This document shows, piece by piece, positions 6,538-60,992 of a DNA stretch of 60,992 nt (the first letter of the stretch is position 1; each line of letters starts with the position of its first letter). Under the pieces are notes generated by a model. The model was not told where the DNA came from. It did no database searches and was given only the letters and a program-made list of their open reading frames with translations. Source of the DNA: a virus. Both the position numbers and the translations under genes were made by a program. The stretch lies in IMG/VR virus record IMGVR_UViG_3300022602_000006, positions 1 through 60,992 of that record; one strand, given 5' to 3'.

Positions 6538-6568
6538 ATATTATAGCATACCTTTACATATGTATCCA
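6538..6568 (-). promoter_or_regulatory. Sigma70-like early promoter P1
   Basis: On the minus strand: -35 TGGATA (6568-6563), a 17-bp spacer, an extended -10 TGC, then a perfect TATAAT (6545-6540). The 31-bp block matches the second promoter (7531-7561) at 29 positions, including a CATATG palindrome in the spacer. It lies in the short gap upstream of the DUF/MoxR/VWA genes and should drive them. Confidence 0.8.
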
Positions 6569-7230: not shown

Positions 7231-7439
7231 CAGTTGTTGTCCGGGTCGGTTAACGTCATCAACGAAAGGCGCATCTCACGATGCACCTTGGGGCGCACGT
7301 AGTGCCGCTTGGGCTTGGCGTAGTCCATCGTGTGACGGTCGTCACGCTGAGTGCGGTATACGATTGTGGGCGATTGCAGAGTGTTGCTCTCCATCTGCAT
7401 GGCTTTGTAGAACGCTTCGCATCTGGCCTTGTAGTCCAT
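7230..7439 (-). CDS. Hypothetical protein, 69 residues, first gene of the early arm
   Basis: ATG 7439 is preceded by CGGAGG at 5 bases, which is decisive against the upstream ATG at 7502. That upstream start would lie at or before the likely transcription start of P2. The protein is basic (AKPKRHYVRPKVHREMR) with an N-terminal helix. No family recognised. Its leader contains one of the four GCGTTAC palindromes, so it is probably the first gene shut down or switched by the factor that binds there. Confidence 0.65.
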   Translation of the reverse strand: MDYKARCEAFYKAMQMESNTLQSPTIVYRTQRDDRHTMDYAKPKRHYVRPKVHREMRLSLMTLTDPDNN

Positions 7440-7456
7440 AGAACCTCCGAGTTGTG

Positions 7457-7475
7457 GCGTTACGGGCTGTAACGC
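7457..7475. promoter_or_regulatory. Palindrome 1: GCGTTAC-N5-GTAACGC (candidate operator)
   Basis: Perfect 7-bp arms around GGGCT. It sits between promoter P2 (-10 at 7533-7538) and the first start codon at 7439, so a bound protein would block early transcription. In RNA it would form a short stem near the ribosome site. The same arms recur at 8012-8030 and, with small changes, at 8123 and 8258. Confidence 0.7.
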
Positions 7476-7530
7476 TAAATTGTGTCGAACCATATAAACC
7501 ATTCAACCTACATCTTCCCTCATCTAAGAG

Positions 7531-7561
7531 ATATTATAGCATATCTTTACATATGAATCCA
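7531..7561 (-). promoter_or_regulatory. Sigma70-like early promoter P2
   Basis: On the minus strand: -35 TGGATT (7561-7556), a 17-bp spacer, extended TGC, then TATAAT (7538-7533). It is nearly identical to P1 (29 of 31). It is the most upstream promoter-like site for the whole leftward arm and borders the candidate origin. Confidence 0.8.
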
Positions 7562-7579
7562 GCACTTGATTAGGGGTCA

Positions 7580-8005
7580 GTTCCAGTTTTGTTCCACGTG
7601 TTCCAGCTTGTTCCAAGAAAAAAATGGGTTTTGGAACACGGGTACGTCACTAAATGTGGACGTTAAAAATACGTCCAATTTGGGAGGGAAGCATTGATTT
7701 TTAAGGAGTTATTATTATTATTTTTTAAATAATATATATATATATAGGAGAGTTATACGGATTTGTTCCAATGTTCCACTTTTTTAGAAAATAGAGGGTC
7801 GGTTTCCCCAGACCACTTTTGCTTACCTGACCCCTGCCGTCCCCTTTTCCCTCTCCCCGTTTTTACTCCGTAGGGGGGGTATTCTTGTAATTCCACTTGG
7901 AACAATGGAACAAATGACTTAACCATATGATTCTATTAAGAAAATCCTGTTCCAAGCGCAAAAATTTCTTGGAACAAATGGAACTTGGCTGGAACAAATT
8001 GGAAC
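7580..8005. repeat. Candidate replication origin: 14 GTTCCA/TGGAAC iterons around an AT-rich tract
   Basis: GTTCCA begins at 7580, 7591, 7600, 7610, 7765, 7773 and 7949. Its complement TGGAAC begins at 7632, 7898, 7906, 7970, 7979, 7990 and 8000. The two end clusters are in opposite orientation with 9-11 base spacing, about one helical turn. Between them lies an AT tract (about 7695-7748, including an alternating AT run). Arrays of phased short repeats beside an AT-rich element are typical of iteron origins. No gene fits here. Origin function and the binding protein are inferred. Confidence 0.65.
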
Positions 8006-8011
8006 AAAACC

Positions 8012-8030
8012 GCGTTACACGTCGTAACGC
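8012..8030. promoter_or_regulatory. Palindrome 2: GCGTTAC-N5-GTAACGC
   Basis: Same 7-bp arms and the same 5-base spacing as palindrome 1, with ACGTC in the centre. It lies 7 bases beyond the last TGGAAC repeat. An identical-arm site 555 bases away argues for a sequence-specific dimeric protein. Confidence 0.7.
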
Positions 8031-8058
8031 ACTTGTTTAGAGCCGTTTTCGTGCCGAT

Positions 8059-8236
8059 ACCCAACATGGTTTAAACTAACAAAATATGATGAGGGGTTAT
8101 CAGAATCTGTCAGTTTAAATGACGTTACGGGGCGTAACGATGCCCACACCCAACACCATTTAAACTCGCGCGATATGACGTGGGTTCTTCAGAATCGGCC
8201 AGTTTAAACGATGTTGCGCGATGCACGGTGCCCACA
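8059..8236. repeat. Imperfect 89-bp tandem repeat with inverted TTTAAACT pairs
   Basis: Copy A is 8059-8147 and copy B is 8148-8236. Both start ACCCAACA and share ATATGA-G, TCAGAATC and CAGTTTAAA blocks. Each copy holds TTTAAACT and its inverse AGTTTAAA separated by 34 bases (8070/8112 and 8159/8201), so TTTAAA recurs every 44-45 bases. No open frame of interest. It is probably a multi-protein binding array or part of the origin. Confidence 0.75.
8123..8139. promoter_or_regulatory. Palindrome 3: CGTTAC-N5-GTAACG
   Basis: Arms of 6 bp around GGGGC, inside copy A of the 89-bp repeat. The equivalent place in copy B (about 8212-8226) is decayed to a GTTGC...GCAC version, so only one of the two repeat copies keeps a good site. 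Confidence 0.6.
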
Positions 8237-8257: not shown

Positions 8258-8277
8258 AGCGTTACGCGCGTAACGCT
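8258..8277. promoter_or_regulatory. Palindrome 4: perfect 20-bp AGCGTTACGC/GCGTAACGCT
   Basis: Perfect dyad of two 10-base arms. The GTTAC and GTAAC half-sites are one base closer than in palindromes 1-3. It is the rightmost site of the family and borders a GC-rich stretch. Confidence 0.6.
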
Positions 8278-8715: not shown

Positions 8716-9399
8716 ATGTCGATTCTCAGCGAGACTATGCAGAATACTTTTAGCGACGAGCAGATTTACGCTCTAACGAAAACGGTCTCAGCAGCTACTG
8801 ATCTGACAGCGGACAATATCAAAGCGTTGCGTCCGATCCAGCAGCAGTTCAAGACCTTCTACAACCTGCTGCCGAAGGGTAAGGATGGTTGGGTCGATGA
8901 GACTTGCGACACGTTCAAGGAGTTTCGGAAGTTCTGCCGGGACTTGACCTTGAACCGTCTTGTAGGTCGCCCGGAATACACCATCTCGTACTACAAAACT
9001 CCAGACGACGCTGGCGAGCTAGTTTGGAGGCAGCAGTCGGGGAAGGTCGAGATCGACCCGGTTAAATTCCCCTGCTTCACGGTGACTGGAGCGATTGCTG
9101 ACCCTCGCGCCAAATTCAGGCACGACGACAAGACCATCTTTGAGTCTTGCGTCGAGCCTGTTCGGACTCTGATGCTCGGTGCAGAGCGTCAGACGTTCAG
9201 CCGACTGAAGCCCAAGAAGCCTCGGTCAGGCGTTACCAAAGCACAAGACTTTGGTGCCAAATTTAATGACCTGATGAAGAAAGTCTCTAACTTGCGAGAC
9301 ACTCTCAAGACCGAAGAGTTCCCCGTTAAGGACGAAACTTCCTTCAAGAAGGCCGTAGCTCAGTTGGCGATGGTGCTTGGGTTAGGTGCTCAGAAGTGA
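8716..9399 (+). CDS. Hypothetical protein, 227 residues, isolated in the control region
   Basis: ATG 8716 follows GGAGG at about 6 bases, which decides against the upstream in-frame ATG. The protein is soluble and largely helical, with a basic segment near residues 165-180 (RLKPKKPRSGVTK) and a helical C-terminus. There is no known motif. It is the only plus-strand gene beside the origin candidate and is separated from the late genes by a terminator, so it is probably its own transcription unit. A regulator, initiator or abundant DNA-binding protein would fit; none is proven. A weak -10 (TATAGT) lies near 8669-8674. Confidence 0.75.
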   Translation: MSILSETMQNTFSDEQIYALTKTVSAATDLTADNIKALRPIQQQFKTFYNLLPKGKDGWVDETCDTFKEFRKFCRDLTLNRLVGRPEYTISYYKTPDDAGELVWRQQSGKVEIDPVKFPCFTVTGAIADPRAKFRHDDKTIFESCVEPVRTLMLGAERQTFSRLKPKKPRSGVTKAQDFGAKFNDLMKKVSNLRDTLKTEEFPVKDETSFKKAVAQLAMVLGLGAQK

Positions 9400-9467
9400 G
9401 TCAACTTCCAATCCTACTGCTGATGATCGTTTTAGCCTTCGGGCTTCTCGCTATCAGACGTAAGTAG
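9396..9467 (+). CDS. 23-residue membrane peptide translationally coupled to the previous gene
   Basis: A GTG at 9396 overlaps the stop of the 8716-9399 gene (GTGA). The frame encodes a peptide beginning MSQLPILLL, hydrophobic through residue 20 and ending RRK, then a stop three bases before the terminator hairpin. The shape, a single span with a positive C-terminus, is that of small phage or toxin-like membrane peptides. The exact fit between the coupled start and the terminator makes it more likely to be real than chance. Confidence 0.5.
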   Translation: MSQLPILLLMIVLAFGLLAIRRK

Positions 9468-9469
9468 CT

Positions 9470-9509
9470 GCACAGGGTGCTGTCCGAAAGGACAGCACCC
9501 TGCGCTTTT
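9470..9509 (+). terminator. Rho-independent terminator after the 8716 gene
   Basis: A 13-bp perfect stem CAGGGTGCTGTCC / GGACAGCACCCTG (9473-9485, 9490-9502) with a GAAA tetraloop, extended by two more pairs, is followed by CTTTTC. It ends the isolated control-region operon before the late genes. Confidence 0.88.
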
Positions 9510-10062
9510 CCGCTTTCTTTTGATGCCAAACCAATGCCACCATGTCAATTAATGTTGATCGAGTTGGGCGATGTTTTGTTTAATCGAAGCTACGCGGCAG
9601 CGGTAAACGTCGTCGTCCTGCGGACGCAGGACACGACATAAACCCGCGAAGCACATTTATTCTTTTCCTCGCCGGGACGGCGAAAGCGAGACCCGAGCGC
9701 AGCGAGTCTTTCACGGTCTCGCCATATAAAATTCAAAGCTGGCTTAGTTGTCTAGATGATAGGCTGGCTTGGGCTGGCTTAGTTTTTTATCGAAGGGCTG
9801 GCTAACGCTGCTAATATTGATTGTCGAAGCTACCTGTTAGGCGCGGCAATCGGTATATCGAAGCCACCGGGTAGGTGCCCCCCACGAAGTGATAAGGTAC
9901 CTACGAAGTGCGCTTACACTTGGAAACGCACAAATCACCCCATCATTTCCCAAATAGACCCCCACCCCCCTGTATATAAAAACACCCCCCCGTCACTAAA
10001 ATGGTTCCATACCAATAGAAATCGTATATATTGTATAAATCCAAACCCTTGCAAGGCATTGC
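9510..10062. other. Non-coding region before the late genes: short repeats and possible late promoter or packaging site
   Basis: No convincing gene. GCTGGCT occurs four times (9738, 9763, 9773, 9797) and CGAAG words recur throughout. An inverted repeat GTAGGTGCC...GGTACCTAC spans about 9870-9900. C-rich runs and TATATA/TATAAA sequences lie at 9955-10040, just ahead of the terminase start. The position before terminase genes is where pac/cos sites and late promoters commonly lie, but no sequence here identifies one. Confidence 0.45.
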
Positions 10063-10623
10063 ATGTCGTACATGCCTGACATAGATGAAGACATTCCGTT
10101 GCCCAAAAAAGCCACGGAAGCCATGCCCGACCTGACTCCGCATGAAGAACTTGAGATGCGGGTCAACACGATGAAATTGTTGGCCGATCTAACCGGCACT
10201 CCCATCTCTCCCTCTGCCGAACATCAAGCCCAAGCAATTGAGTTGGCTAAAGAAATGACTGCCAACCCCAAGCTACGGCCTGAGTACGCCCGTTACCCGA
10301 ACGAAGTGATGGCCTATCTGGCTGGGATGGTTCAGCAGTCAAACTGCATGTTGGTCGATGACCTTGCTGAATTGAAGATGTACGTCATCAACAAGCTGGT
10401 CTATGAGGTAGAACATGCCCAAACGACCAAGGACAGACTTACTGCACTCCGTAGTTTGGGCGAAGTAGATGGTGTAGATGCCTTCAAAAAGCGCAGTGAA
10501 ACCACTCTTAAAGTGCTGCCGATTGAAGAAGTAGAACGCGAACTGCTCACGGTGCTTGATAACATCGAATACACCGTTATGGAGGAGCCGCAGGTTGAGT
10601 ACAGCCCTCAAACTGACGCCTGA
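10063..10623 (+). CDS. terS: Terminase small subunit (probable)
   Basis: 186 residues, helical and acidic, without a Walker motif, placed directly before and overlapping the large terminase subunit. That is the standard position and size of a DNA-recognition small subunit. The start is ATG 10063 or ATG 10072; the ribosome site is weak (AAGG). Homology was not tested, so the assignment rests on context and size. It would recognise the packaging site, perhaps in the region just upstream. Confidence 0.7.
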   Translation: MSYMPDIDEDIPLPKKATEAMPDLTPHEELEMRVNTMKLLADLTGTPISPSAEHQAQAIELAKEMTANPKLRPEYARYPNEVMAYLAGMVQQSNCMLVDDLAELKMYVINKLVYEVEHAQTTKDRLTALRSLGEVDGVDAFKKRSETTLKVLPIEEVERELLTVLDNIEYTVMEEPQVEYSPQTDA

Positions 10624-31976: not shown

Positions 31977-32666
31977 ATGCTTGGGTACGTAGCCCTATCT
32001 GAAAGCACAGTATCAGATGTTACTTATCAGTACATCAATACGGCAGGTGGCGGCTACGTATCCATTTCCGAAAACGCGATCTCATCCTATTGGGTTAGTG
32101 CGTTTGTAGGAGTTACCGCCGTTGCGGCGACGGGTGTAGTTGAATCGGTCAATTATGAAGCCGACGCCAATGTTTCTGTTACCGCCGTAACGGCTACCGG
32201 CGCGGTAAAGTCTGTTACCGTCTCTGAAGACGCCAACGAGTCTGTTACCGGCGTCACGGCTACCGGCGTCCTTGGTATACCCGTTGAAGTTGTTACCGAA
32301 GTCATCCCCGTCTCCGGGGTTGTCGGCACGGTAACAGTTCAATCGGTCAGCGTTGTAATCAGTATTGCTGTTACCCCGGTTACGGCCACGGGGGTAGTTA
32401 AGTCAGTTACGGCGACGGTAGCAGTTGATGAGGTAGTTACCCCAGTCACCGCCGTTGCTGTGCTGGAATCGGTTACAAGTCATGGAGATGCGAATGTCAT
32501 CTTATCTGGACTTTTCTGTAAAGGGTATATTGAATCGGTCAACGTCTGGGGTATCATACCGACCAACGAGACTGCGAATTGGGTGCCTGTATCCGATTCG
32601 GAAGCCGCAAACTGGACGCCGGTCACAACCGCTGAAACACCCGACTGGGTGCCTGTTGCTGCTTAA
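31977..32666 (+). CDS. Repeat protein of short VTATGVV-type units, 229 residues
   Basis: Between residues about 35 and 160, units of VTAVTATGAVKSVTV form recur about six times, with GTTACCG-rich DNA repeats. The C-terminus repeats NWVPVSDSEAANWTPVTTAE-like WxPV units three times. It is beta-forming and Val-rich, as in fibre shafts. Probably a fibre-associated or surface protein whose unit number may vary. Confidence 0.65.
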   Translation: MLGYVALSESTVSDVTYQYINTAGGGYVSISENAISSYWVSAFVGVTAVAATGVVESVNYEADANVSVTAVTATGAVKSVTVSEDANESVTGVTATGVLGIPVEVVTEVIPVSGVVGTVTVQSVSVVISIAVTPVTATGVVKSVTATVAVDEVVTPVTAVAVLESVTSHGDANVILSGLFCKGYIESVNVWGIIPTNETANWVPVSDSEAANWTPVTTAETPDWVPVAA

Positions 32667-50383: not shown

Positions 50384-50580
50384 GCAACGCGCCACACCCG
50401 TACACCAAGACAATCATCTTTAGTCGTTGAGAAGATTTTGACCTTCACTTTGGCGACTTTGGCACGAGTGTCTATGATGTAAGTAAGTTCCGCTGGTCTG
50501 AGTGTGGGGATAAAGAAACTATCCCCAACACTCATCCATTCAAACGGCAACAAAAACTCGGGTTCTGCTGGTGGCTGCAT
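50380..50580 (-). CDS. Small conserved phage protein, 66 residues
   Basis: Last gene of the leftward arm. ATG 50580 shares a base with the primase-helicase stop (TAATG). The pattern MSVGDSFFIPT ... GVRVWRV is one I recall from small proteins next to primase genes in many phages; no function is known. Its stop codon overlaps the stop of the opposing 1885-residue gene at CTAG, leaving no space for a terminator. Confidence 0.75.
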   Translation of the reverse strand: MQPPAEPEFLLPFEWMSVGDSFFIPTLRPAELTYIIDTRAKVAKVKVKIFSTTKDDCLGVRVWRVA

Positions 50581-53423
50581 TAATGTTTTGGATTGTCTTT
50601 GACGATAAGCATTTCAATATCAGATGGGTCTAGCTTGAAGACCCAACAGTGTACTGGCCCTACGACCGATGCTTCGCCCCAGCCAGCACCAATCCTCTTT
50701 TTCTCGGACTTGATAAGTATTCCTCGTTCCTGCATCACGTGTTCAAACTGGCTAATGTTGAGTTTTTGTTTGCCGCCGATGTAGTTCTTGATGGCTTGTT
50801 TGTGCACCCAGACCAACTGGCTGTCCAACTCAATGCGCCCAATAAAAGCATGGTGGGTTGGAAAGTTTATAATGGTGTCGCCGTCCATCTTCAAGAACGA
50901 GTGCAGGTTGTCGTTCATAAAGGTATTGAACTCGTCAGGGTAATTAGCATCGTTGCTGTTAGTGCGGTCACGGAAATCAATCATGGCTTTCATGACTTCC
51001 TCATAAACTCGTTCAAGATCAAGTCTAATGATGTCGGCCTTGTTGGCAATCTCCCCGCCTGTAAACGATGCACTAACTAAGCTACGGTAGAACCTATACT
51101 TGGTGTGCGTTCCAAACGACTTATCAAACCGACTGCCCCAATAAGCCAAACGGATGCTGATTTCATCGAACCCCATAGCGTAGACGGCTTTGATGAATTC
51201 GATTCCTGCATGACCGTAGTTATGGTTGAAAGGCTCAATGATCATAGGGCCAAGCTCAGGGTGCCGTTCAAACAGTTTGGGTGTCTGCACCATGAACTGA
51301 ACGAAACGGGCGATTTCGCCCTCGGGGTTCTTCTTGTACTGGCGTAGAATATCCAGCACGTCAGCGTTGGAGTTCCACAACGAGATAAGCGATGCAAAGG
51401 CTTCGATGTCGCGTTCTTCATTCTCGGACGACTGCATCCTCGCCTTGGGCTTGCCGGTAGATACTTGGAAGATAAACTTGGAAAGCTGTTCTGGAAGCCG
51501 GGAGTGCACCTCGTCAAGACCAAACATAATGTTTTTTAAGTTGAGCATACGCCCCACAAGTACGTTGTCGGTCGCGTTGTTCTCCTGCAAACACAAGCCA
51601 CGGGGGTCTCCATAGACACTCAACCCCGCCAACATTGCCGCAGACTTGCCAGCACCCGATGGGCCTGAGTAGCACACCGACACGCCGGGAGTGTTGGTCA
51701 ATGACATCAGGGGGGAACCGAACGCGCACAGCATGGCGAAGGCTATAGGCTCAAGCGACGGTTGGTTTAACTGCCTTGCTGAGTTCTTCCACACTTGGAA
51801 GCTACCGGTAGCTGGCATGATCTTGGCAAGTTTGCGTACACCGGGAGAAGCAGCGGTCTTACGCACCTCTCCGCTCCGGGTAATCTCATTGAATCCAATG
51901 ACAAAAGAATCCATGTGATCAGTCCAACCCATCTGGGTCTGCATCTGCTCGGCGGTTTTCATGTTAATAAAGTAATCATTCCATTTGCTCATGTAGTCAA
52001 CCATCCTTTGGATCAGTGCTGTGTTTGGGTGTGTAGGCATCACATCGTAACTAGCAAGTAACTCTCTAAACTTGTCATTACCAATGGATATGTACTTCAC
52101 CGGCAAATCAAACTCCCGATCTGGATCTTTGGGGAGCATGACTTTTACTGTAAGAACTGCGCCATCGCGCTTGCTGAAGATGCGCGTTGTTGGATAAAAG
52201 ATATGTCGGCAGATCATGACGGCGGGGGGATCTACCTCCTTGCCCTTCTTGTCATACTCAATCGGCGGCTTGTACCACAAGGCGTTATCAGCACCCCATG
52301 AATACGGAAACAATTCTTCGGGAAGTTTAGGAAGGCCGGGAGGCATTTTCTCGGGAGGTAGTGGCTTGACTCGTTTGCCCAACGCCACAGGGGATCCGAT
52401 CTTGCCTTTGAAGTGACAGCCATCACACCCTTTTGGGTAAACGCCCTCTATGGTGTCACATCGCTGCGGTGCATCATTCTTTAAAGTTTCTTGGGCTTTA
52501 AGAACCGTCTTGTCGTAATCGTAACCGGGGTGTCCTTGCGAAACGACGTGTACAGCCTCTTCGCCATCCACACAATGAGCGGCAATGGACAGCAGCCAAA
52601 ACCATTCTGGGTACTTCTGCTTGGCCGGGGCAGCGACCAATCTCTTGATCTGGGCGCAGCCGTTGTCTTCTAGGGACTTCTCCAGCACGTCTTGAAAATA
52701 ATTCTCGGTGCCGTCGAATTTGCCCTTGTTACCAATGCTGGCAGTATCTTCATCCAATCCCTTCGGAATCTGGGCTAGAACATCTATAGATGGTGAATTA
52801 TTCCCGGTGTTAGAAGTTACCCGCCCAAAAATAATTGACTCTATATAAACAAGTTCATGTACGACCACCGAGCTGGTCAGTACGCTGGTCGGGCTGGGCG
52901 GGTTTGTTTTATAGTTAAAAGTGTCTGGGCAACGCATGAGCCGGGAAGCATCGGCTGTCACTGAGGGGTCTATGAGCAACCCCTTGTCCACGCAAAATTG
53001 TTTAAATGATTCAGCCAGCGGTTTCCATTTTTCAATCGGGATATCTTGCGTGAGTATCCAGAAGGCTTGGATGCCAGTTCCTGAGTTAACCCGAACCGGT
53101 TCGGGCATACCTGTGTTGGCGATGAAGTCATCAAGCGCAGCCAACGCTTCTTCTTGACTGCTGTATTCCTTCTCAGCCCCTACGTCCAGATCAACGAACA
53201 ACGAACGCGACCATAACGCGCTCTTCGCTTGCCGACTGTATCCTTTGAATGAGTTTGGTGTTACGTAAACATTGGCCCCCGCTGTTTTGTACTCGTCCGT
53301 TATTTTAATTAGATCATCAAGGTTCTCTGCAAACCGACTGCCTAAGCTACCGTCCTTGTCGATTTTTGCTACACAGTAGAAACCTTGCGATGGAAGTAGG
53401 TGTTCGTAAAATTGTTTTTTCAT
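50580..53423 (-). CDS. Bifunctional primase-helicase (archaeo-eukaryotic-type primase plus P-loop ATPase)
   Basis: 947 residues if started at ATG 53423; the upstream ATG 53483 would be read through a terminator hairpin. The N-terminal AEP-like primase shows FVDLDVG (Asp78, Asp80), then NSGTGIQAFW and DASRLMRCPDTFNYK. Near residue 590-600, SGPSGAGKSAA is a Walker A with a later FGLDEVHSR, so a ring helicase-like ATPase follows. It would unwind and prime DNA at the phage fork. It is the largest early gene and is co-located with polymerase and helicase genes. Confidence 0.88.
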   Translation of the reverse strand: MKKQFYEHLLPSQGFYCVAKIDKDGSLGSRFAENLDDLIKITDEYKTAGANVYVTPNSFKGYSRQAKSALWSRSLFVDLDVGAEKEYSSQEEALAALDDFIANTGMPEPVRVNSGTGIQAFWILTQDIPIEKWKPLAESFKQFCVDKGLLIDPSVTADASRLMRCPDTFNYKTNPPSPTSVLTSSVVVHELVYIESIIFGRVTSNTGNNSPSIDVLAQIPKGLDEDTASIGNKGKFDGTENYFQDVLEKSLEDNGCAQIKRLVAAPAKQKYPEWFWLLSIAAHCVDGEEAVHVVSQGHPGYDYDKTVLKAQETLKNDAPQRCDTIEGVYPKGCDGCHFKGKIGSPVALGKRVKPLPPEKMPPGLPKLPEELFPYSWGADNALWYKPPIEYDKKGKEVDPPAVMICRHIFYPTTRIFSKRDGAVLTVKVMLPKDPDREFDLPVKYISIGNDKFRELLASYDVMPTHPNTALIQRMVDYMSKWNDYFINMKTAEQMQTQMGWTDHMDSFVIGFNEITRSGEVRKTAASPGVRKLAKIMPATGSFQVWKNSARQLNQPSLEPIAFAMLCAFGSPLMSLTNTPGVSVCYSGPSGAGKSAAMLAGLSVYGDPRGLCLQENNATDNVLVGRMLNLKNIMFGLDEVHSRLPEQLSKFIFQVSTGKPKARMQSSENEERDIEAFASLISLWNSNADVLDILRQYKKNPEGEIARFVQFMVQTPKLFERHPELGPMIIEPFNHNYGHAGIEFIKAVYAMGFDEISIRLAYWGSRFDKSFGTHTKYRFYRSLVSASFTGGEIANKADIIRLDLERVYEEVMKAMIDFRDRTNSNDANYPDEFNTFMNDNLHSFLKMDGDTIINFPTHHAFIGRIELDSQLVWVHKQAIKNYIGGKQKLNISQFEHVMQERGILIKSEKKRIGAGWGEASVVGPVHCWVFKLDPSDIEMLIVKDNPKH

Positions 53424-53433
53424 ATTCGCCGTA

Positions 53434-53464
53434 GAAAAAAACGCCGGGGGAGCTACCCCCGGCG
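53434..53464 (-). terminator. Rho-independent terminator or attenuator before the primase-helicase
   Basis: On the minus strand, a 9-bp perfect GC-rich stem CGCCGGGGG / CCCCCGGCG with loop TAGCT is followed by TTTTTTT. It lies between the HTH gene and the primase-helicase start (ATG 53423), so it would limit expression of the downstream gene unless antiterminated. Confidence 0.85.
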
Positions 53465-53491
53465 AGAGGTGAAGAACTACCAACCATCAAA

Positions 53492-53803
53492 TCAAATGGA
53501 TACCCCCAACATCTCTTGTATGTAGTTCTTGGCATCGACCATGTTCTTGGCGGGTAACATGCCAACCTTGGCATCGTCCTCAACCAATCTGATGAATGTC
53601 TCAACCAAGGCTCGTTTATTTTCGCTTACGCCTCTACCGCGAAACCAACTGTAGATAGTCATACGCGAAGTCTTGAGTGCAACTGCAACATACGAAGCAG
53701 GGATATTCATCTCTACGCACAGGCGACCAAGACGAACCCCGAGTCTATCGGAGTTCGCTTGCGACAGTTCGTATAGAAATTTATCGCTGTAGTTCCGTGG
53801 CAT
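53492..53803 (-). CDS. Helix-turn-helix DNA-binding protein, 103 residues
   Basis: A helix-turn-helix is visible at IPASYVAVALKTSRMTIYSWFRGRGV (residues about 34-60), with a charged helical C-terminus. It resembles small phage DNA-binding proteins next to primase genes. It lies upstream of a terminator and is the best candidate in the window to bind the GCGTTAC palindromes, an inference from the lack of another clear HTH protein. Start ATG 53803. Confidence 0.75.
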   Translation of the reverse strand: MPRNYSDKFLYELSQANSDRLGVRLGRLCVEMNIPASYVAVALKTSRMTIYSWFRGRGVSENKRALVETFIRLVEDDAKVGMLPAKNMVDAKNYIQEMLGVSI

Positions 53804-60746: not shown

Positions 60747-60992
60747 CGTTCAACTCCTTCAATAGGAACAACCACAGTCTTGAATTTTTTGGAGCACTCA
60801 TGGCATAACACTGCCCAATCACCAAGATAGTCAAGTCTTAGTCCGTATTTTTCGTTTAGATCGCTATGTTGCGTAAAATTCTCATCGTCCTGAGTGTATT
60901 GATTTTCACCGCAGTTCTTAAATGGTGGAACATCACTCCATTCGGATTTGCCTTGATTGTAATTAAGATTAACGTCGTAGAAGACTTTTTGA
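60743..60992 (-). CDS. Zinc-ribbon small protein, C-terminal part (gene crosses the circle junction)
   Basis: Continuation of the gene that starts at ATG 161 in the left copy of the terminal repeat. After the join at 60890 it reads DDENFTQHSDLNEKY, then a second Cys pair (CHEC), and stops at 60743. The stop overlaps the next ATG. The reading frame is unbroken across the join (309 bases, 103 codons), which supports the circular form. Confidence 0.75.
   Translation of the reverse strand, partial: QKVFYDVNLNYNQGKSEWSDVPPFKNCGENQYTQDDENFTQHSDLNEKYGLRLDYLGDWAVLCHECSKKFKTVVVPIEGVER
60891..60992. repeat. Terminal direct repeat, right copy
   Basis: Identical to 1-102; see the left copy. Confidence 0.93.

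Follow-up and report, generated by a model that had tools for sequence, protein, structure and literature searches.

A conserved two-sided array of GTTCCA iterons, a probable replication origin, in a 61-kb phage genome

The window analysed here is the whole 60,992 bp of IMG/VR record IMGVR_UViG_3300022602_000006, in which positions 1-102 and 60891-60992 form an exact 102-bp terminal direct repeat; the record is therefore probably a circularised assembly of a complete genome of 60,890 bp. Its genes are arranged in a leftward arm, which extends from 7.5 kb leftwards across the record ends as far as 50.6 kb and encodes DNA polymerase A, an exonuclease, a helicase and a PrimPol-helicase, and a rightward arm (8.7-50.4 kb) encoding terminase, portal and structural proteins. 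Between the two arms, at 7580-8005, lies an array of short repeats with the sequence GTTCCA or its complement TGGAAC. An earlier sequence-only reading had placed this array at the divergence of the arms with no gene to account for it, and both points were borne out, there being no open reading frame of at least 60 aa in 7503-8124. Judged by terminase, the nearest named phages are DSL-LC04, 023Pt_psg01 and the Pelagibacter phages HTVC027P and HTVC023P (48-53% identity); no DNA similarity to the array region was found among GenBank phages, and Rfam and tRNA searches returned no match. A promoter-like 26-mer, TATTATAGCATAyCTTTACATATGwA, occurs in near-identical form at 6539-6564 and 7532-7557, upstream of leftward genes. 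To the right of the array, at 8062-8216, a tandem duplication of ~117 bp has diverged and contains GTTTAAA motifs. Interrupted palindromes of the form GTTAC-N4/5-GTAAC are found on both array flanks (7459-7473, 8014-8028, 8124-8138 and 8261-8274), with one more at 32178, and are likely to be the operator of some regulator.

The fourteen repeat copies reported by the earlier reading are all present in the positions and orientations that it gave, and the 9-11 bp spacing within both end clusters was likewise confirmed. The features of the array, together with the gene proposed below to encode its initiator, are as follows:

7580-7615, + strand: outer-left iteron cluster, four GTTCCA copies (7580, 7591, 7600, 7610), of which 7591 and 7600 are identical in 14 of 14 aligned relatives
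7632-7637, - strand: lone inverted iteron, individually not kept in relatives
7689-7700, no strand: conserved block AAGCATTGATTT, with the IHF consensus TAAGTNNTTGATT at that position in relatives and a degenerate form in the window; putative IHF role
7700-7760, no strand: AT-rich tract with TTA repeats and alternating AT; putative unwinding element
7765-7778, + strand: inner-left iteron pair, 8-bp spacing
7779-7897, no strand: central spacer, 119 bp, pyrimidine-rich; sequence unconserved, length about conserved in relatives
7898-7911, - strand: inner-right iteron pair, 8-bp spacing, oriented towards the inner-left pair
7920-7932, - strand: IHF-consensus-like site with one mismatch, within the 43-bp spacer
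7949-7954, + strand: satellite iteron in reverse orientation, 43 bp outward of the inner-right pair
7970-8005, - strand: outer-right iteron cluster, four TGGAAC copies (7970, 7979, 7990, 8000)
50580-53483, - strand: proposed initiator, 967 aa, with PrimPol and DUF927/MCM-like helicase domains and a putative C-terminal wHTH-like domain

Read from left to right, the orientations are ++++ - ++ / -- + ---- and the gaps 11, 9, 10, 22, 133, 8, 125, 8, 43, 21, 9, 11 and 10; 7761-7778 and 7898-7915 together form an 18-nt inverted repeat. In 500 dinucleotide-preserving shuffles of 7401-8120 the mean number of GTTCCA copies was 0.43 and the maximum 3, against 14 observed, and 40 whole-genome shuffles gave no 6-mer family with more than six copies per 430 bp; 7580-8005 is the sole cluster of such size in the genome. 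The AT-rich tract reported earlier is present, alternating AT included, but at ~7700-7760 it precedes the inner-left pair instead of occupying the centre of the array. Several short iterons adjoin an AT-rich region, as in origins of the SaPI/SCCmec type.

Relatives were collected as terminase matches, without reference to the motif. Where their contigs extend far enough upstream, the array frequently recurs at the corresponding position, with terL 1.1-3.0 kb downstream of the array in the window family. Across an alignment of 15 arrays (the window and 14 relatives), identity to the window is 73% in site columns versus 31% elsewhere, so that the pattern suggested as a check by the earlier reading, conserved repeats separated by diverging and unconserved spacer sequence, was indeed found. 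Conservation approaches 100% at about nine of the 14 sites (7591, 7600, 7765, 7773, 7898, 7906, 7949, 7970 and 8000), and the relatives share a fixed dyad consisting of two inner pairs that face inward (7765/7773 and 7898/7906), a site in reverse orientation ~43 bp outward, outer clusters and the AT-rich tract. This comparison of sequences shows the array to be a genuine element under conservation. The contig ends of the terminase relatives (L008-L087) peak 500-1000 bp upstream of terL (window 9400-10063), which suggests either the terminus used in packaging or a point at which assemblies recurrently break.

Exact matches to the IHF consensus WATCAANNNNTTR number 21 in the 21 window-type arrays, versus 0.8 expected; relatives keep the matching blocks at two places, one separating the outer-left cluster from the AT tract and the other within the 43-bp spacer. 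The window has degenerate sites only (7689-7700 and 7920-7932). At the position of the AT tract, relatives carry TAG/TAA/AAG trinucleotide runs. The DnaA-trio-like TAG repeats seen by the inner pair in several relatives are suggestive, and we make no claim for them, the window repeat being TTA on the + strand.

Terminase relatives that lack GTTCCA carry another iteron in the same place and geometry: TGACACA (L046), GCGTACA (L049 and L076), CGGCACA (L063) or CAGAACA (L067). Among at least 49 helicase-bearing contigs, the terL-upstream sequence was read in 18, and an array was present there in 16 (TGGAACA/CGGAACA, TAGAACA, GAGAACA, CAGAACA, TGACACA and others); a clear array was missing in the remaining two, L801 having a weak one and L808 none. 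Most of these iterons have the form NNNNACA. Iteron sequence co-varies with initiator sequence in both the C-terminal (p 0.013) and N-terminal (p 0.007) parts, and the residual is not significant (p 0.09). We tentatively suggest, at somewhat below even probability, that a fixed scaffold of inward-facing inner clusters, reversed satellites at 43-44 bp, flanking IHF sites and melting tract takes exchangeable iterons, mostly of NNNNACA type, together with initiator specificity, between close relatives. If true, iteron exchange would amount to switching of origin specificity, perhaps as an escape from competition by co-infecting phages or satellites.

The same geometry is found well beyond the window family. 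A scan of 2.9 million viral contigs for three phased GTTCCA copies gave 31 two-sided arrays among the 120 matches listed; the other 89 were not dyads, and 81 of these lie inside open frames and are probably coding repeats. Among the matches listed, tandem spacing is 8-9 bp across 43 arrays, and an opposite-orientation pair at 41-45 bp occurs in 38 of them, compared with a mean of 23 and a maximum of 32 under random placement. A second scan, for an inner pair plus a reversed site at ten alternative spacings, placed the peak of the inner-site-to-satellite distance at 43-44 in two-sided arrays among the matches listed. We rejected GTTCCA as a special word: per 120 matches listed, GTTCCA gave 31 dyad arrays, the permuted control CTGTCA 21 and the variant GTAACA 47. 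Since the CTGTCA and GTAACA arrays share the geometry, it is the geometry that is constant, and not GTTCCA, whose occurrence with different helicase families is partly due to its use as the search key. The counts from these collection scans are samples and do not measure prevalence.

Primase-helicase genes adjoin the arrays of unrelated phages (L129, L138, L164, L199, L200, L202 and others). For a pooled set of 93 two-sided arrays of the three motifs (GTTCCA, CTGTCA and GTAACA) among the matches listed, the 70 listed open reading frames within 600 bp of an array included DUF5906 in 18, VapE in 13 and D5_N in 9, and the list of 25 families for 70 distant open reading frames from the same loci included none of these three; PHROGs agree with this enrichment. 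By sequence grouping, a primase-helicase frame is in reach at 30 of the loci listed, and in 28 of these its 3' end points towards the array, often at 80 bp or less. In L202 the array lies 18 bp after the gene of a DUF927 protein with a Cch HTH domain, and unannotated GTAACA arrays of the same geometry lie just past a DUF927 helicase gene in the Ruminococcus phage phiRg507T2_3 (L226:31440-31640) and in a gut phage (L227:5704-5904).

The window itself encodes a protein of this kind. The 967-aa product of 50580-53483 matches Pfam DUF927 (E 1.7e-20) and PHROG primase/helicase families, and its AlphaFold (AF2) model (pLDDT 77.5, pTM 0.43) was matched by Foldseek to SCCmec Cch (5DGK, the best match, E 6e-18), SaPIbov1 Rep (8TCH, 2e-14) and the cyanophage S-2L PrimPol (2.5e-6); it is thus a DUF927/Cch-like helicase of the sort that initiates at SaPI/SCCmec-type origins. 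Its C-terminal region aligns with that of the L202 protein (HTH_56, Cch HTH, E 7.8e-7), with no Pfam HTH on the window protein itself. Homologues with 27-44% identity are encoded by nine other long contigs, which are array carriers or terL relatives, and Pseudomonas phage Rollin has a full-length homologue at 22% identity. Both the helicase homologue and the GTTCCA array are absent from DSL-LC04, 023Pt_psg01, HTVC027P, HTVC023P and Pag-Yong1; in many contigs, gene absence may stem from their fragmentary state. The L122 and L173 phages encode an initiator of a second type (828 aa, phrog_24712); they have several genes in common with HTVC027P and 023Pt_psg01, neither of which encodes that initiator. 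We consider the 967-aa protein the likely initiator of the array, and a better candidate for the binding protein than the two proposed earlier, the products of 8716-9399 and of the HTH gene at 53492-53803: neither has a family match, and the former has close copies among three near-identical contigs only.

Origins of SaPIs have iterons directly downstream of rep that are bound by the Rep C-terminal domain, apparently as two hexamers; Cch, which contains DUF927, is a relative of SaPIbov1 Rep, and the C-terminal domain of Cch2 binds AAGTG direct repeats (PMC7581432). Likeness to SaPIbov1 and SaPI5 lies in the short phased iterons and in their proposed binding by a self-loading hexameric helicase through its C-terminal domain, and in other phages of the array class the 3' end of the helicase gene is followed directly by the array, which matches the SaPI arrangement. 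In contrast, the window array belongs to a 61-kb phage genome and lies ~18 kb (circular distance) from the initiator gene, not directly downstream of it; it is a two-sided dyad with 43-bp satellites, with IHF consensus sites in relatives, and its initiator is fused to PrimPol. As there is no initiator gene directly upstream, we class the window array as working like the SaPI/SCCmec type and not as a strict member. The DUF927 MCM-like helicase core is shared with Cch of SCCmec, whereas Cch2 belongs to another helicase family and the described SCC origin has three iterons. In phiRg507T2_3 the likeness extends to inner clusters, a 44-bp satellite and then 12 bp to a reversed site in an array that begins 188 bp after the DUF927 helicase gene gp42; it differs in its GTAACA iteron, in adjoining its initiator and in its Firmicute host, and the array carries no origin annotation. 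The alpha protein of satellite phage P4 is a primase-helicase-DNA-binding fusion that recognises short iterons, GGTGAACA, in ori1 and crr. P4 would resemble the window in this fusion and in the similarity of GGTGAACA to TGGAACA, and would differ in helicase family and layout.

Based on the sequence evidence, the array at 7580-8005 is very probably the site where phage DNA replication starts. This reading, already put forward from the sequence, is now strongly supported because relatives conserve the array, because its dyad architecture is fixed while the spacers diverge, and because similar arrays adjoin primase-helicase genes in unrelated phages; in addition, the proposed initiator is kin to Cch and SaPIbov1 Rep. 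The best explanation of the whole, in which we have high confidence, is that the array would be an origin at which the PrimPol-helicase binds, opens the AT tract, loads itself and primes. Copies of the 967-aa protein would bind TGGAACA iterons via the C-terminal DNA-binding domain and gather on both inward-facing halves, probably forming a pair of opposed hexamers, with IHF bending the spacers to assist them in most relatives; the neighbouring AT-rich tract at 7700-7760 would be opened, and the helicases would load themselves on the single strands while the PrimPol domain primes, giving two diverging forks. We infer the binding, the double hexamer, the melting of the AT tract, the use of IHF and the start of replication at the array from Cch and SaPI Rep.

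The earlier description of an undescribed element holds in part: the array appears to work like known iteron origins of the SaPI/SCCmec/P4 type, but its geometry and iteron exchange are new. It is ordinary in kind, as the probable iteron origin of a self-loading helicase, and new in form, with a geometry that is independent of the motif and common to many phages, and an iteron exchanged between close relatives. Few phage origins have been mapped outside model systems, and a geometry recognisable without knowledge of the iteron would permit origin prediction in thousands of uncultivated phages and would link each origin to its initiator; the turnover of origin-initiator specificity would also become open to direct testing through domain and iteron swaps.

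The main alternative, because a terminase gene is nearby, is a pac or cos packaging site whose repeats would be small-terminase binding sites around a cleavage position beside the terminase operon. The distance of the array from terL in the window family would fit such a site, a terminase gene is also near the arrays of L121, L135 and L178, and phased repeats with an IHF site are found in lambda cosB as well. We nevertheless regard packaging as very improbable, since phages of differing terminase families have arrays immediately past the 3' end of primase-helicase genes, relatives of the same terL family with another replication gene lack the array, and, as an indirect sign, most arrays are 1.1-2.8 kb upstream of terL, away from the peak of contig ends. 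An operator array for a regulator of the two diverging arms would suit the location at the divergence point, the promoter-like sequence at 7532 and the GTTAC palindromes at 7459, 8014, 8124 and 8261, although the latter are themselves more typical of an operator. The extent and fixed dyad geometry with 43-bp satellites, and the adjacency of arrays to replication genes in phages whose transcription does not diverge there, make it very improbable that this is what the array is, while an operator role in addition to that of origin is possible. ParR or ParB sites also comprise phased repeats and inverted clusters, and the phased inverted clusters of the array look like them; a partition (centromere) site for plasmid-like maintenance is nonetheless extremely improbable given that no ParA/ParR gene was recognised beside the window array and that arrays in many phages track primase-helicase genes.

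GC skew, which the earlier reading had named as a check on the origin, was dropped as proof. The cumulative G-C minimum is at 10.3 kb and not at 7.8 kb, 2.3 kb off the array (a skew shift within 2.5 kb), which is consistent with an origin, yet it cannot discriminate, being confounded with gene direction where transcription diverges at the same place. The skew also changes near the arrays of G012, G014 and G016, and transcription diverges there too. In Pseudomonas phage Rollin, a non-coding region (L224:260-680) carries TTGCATA/TATGCAA iterons beside a (TAA)n tract.
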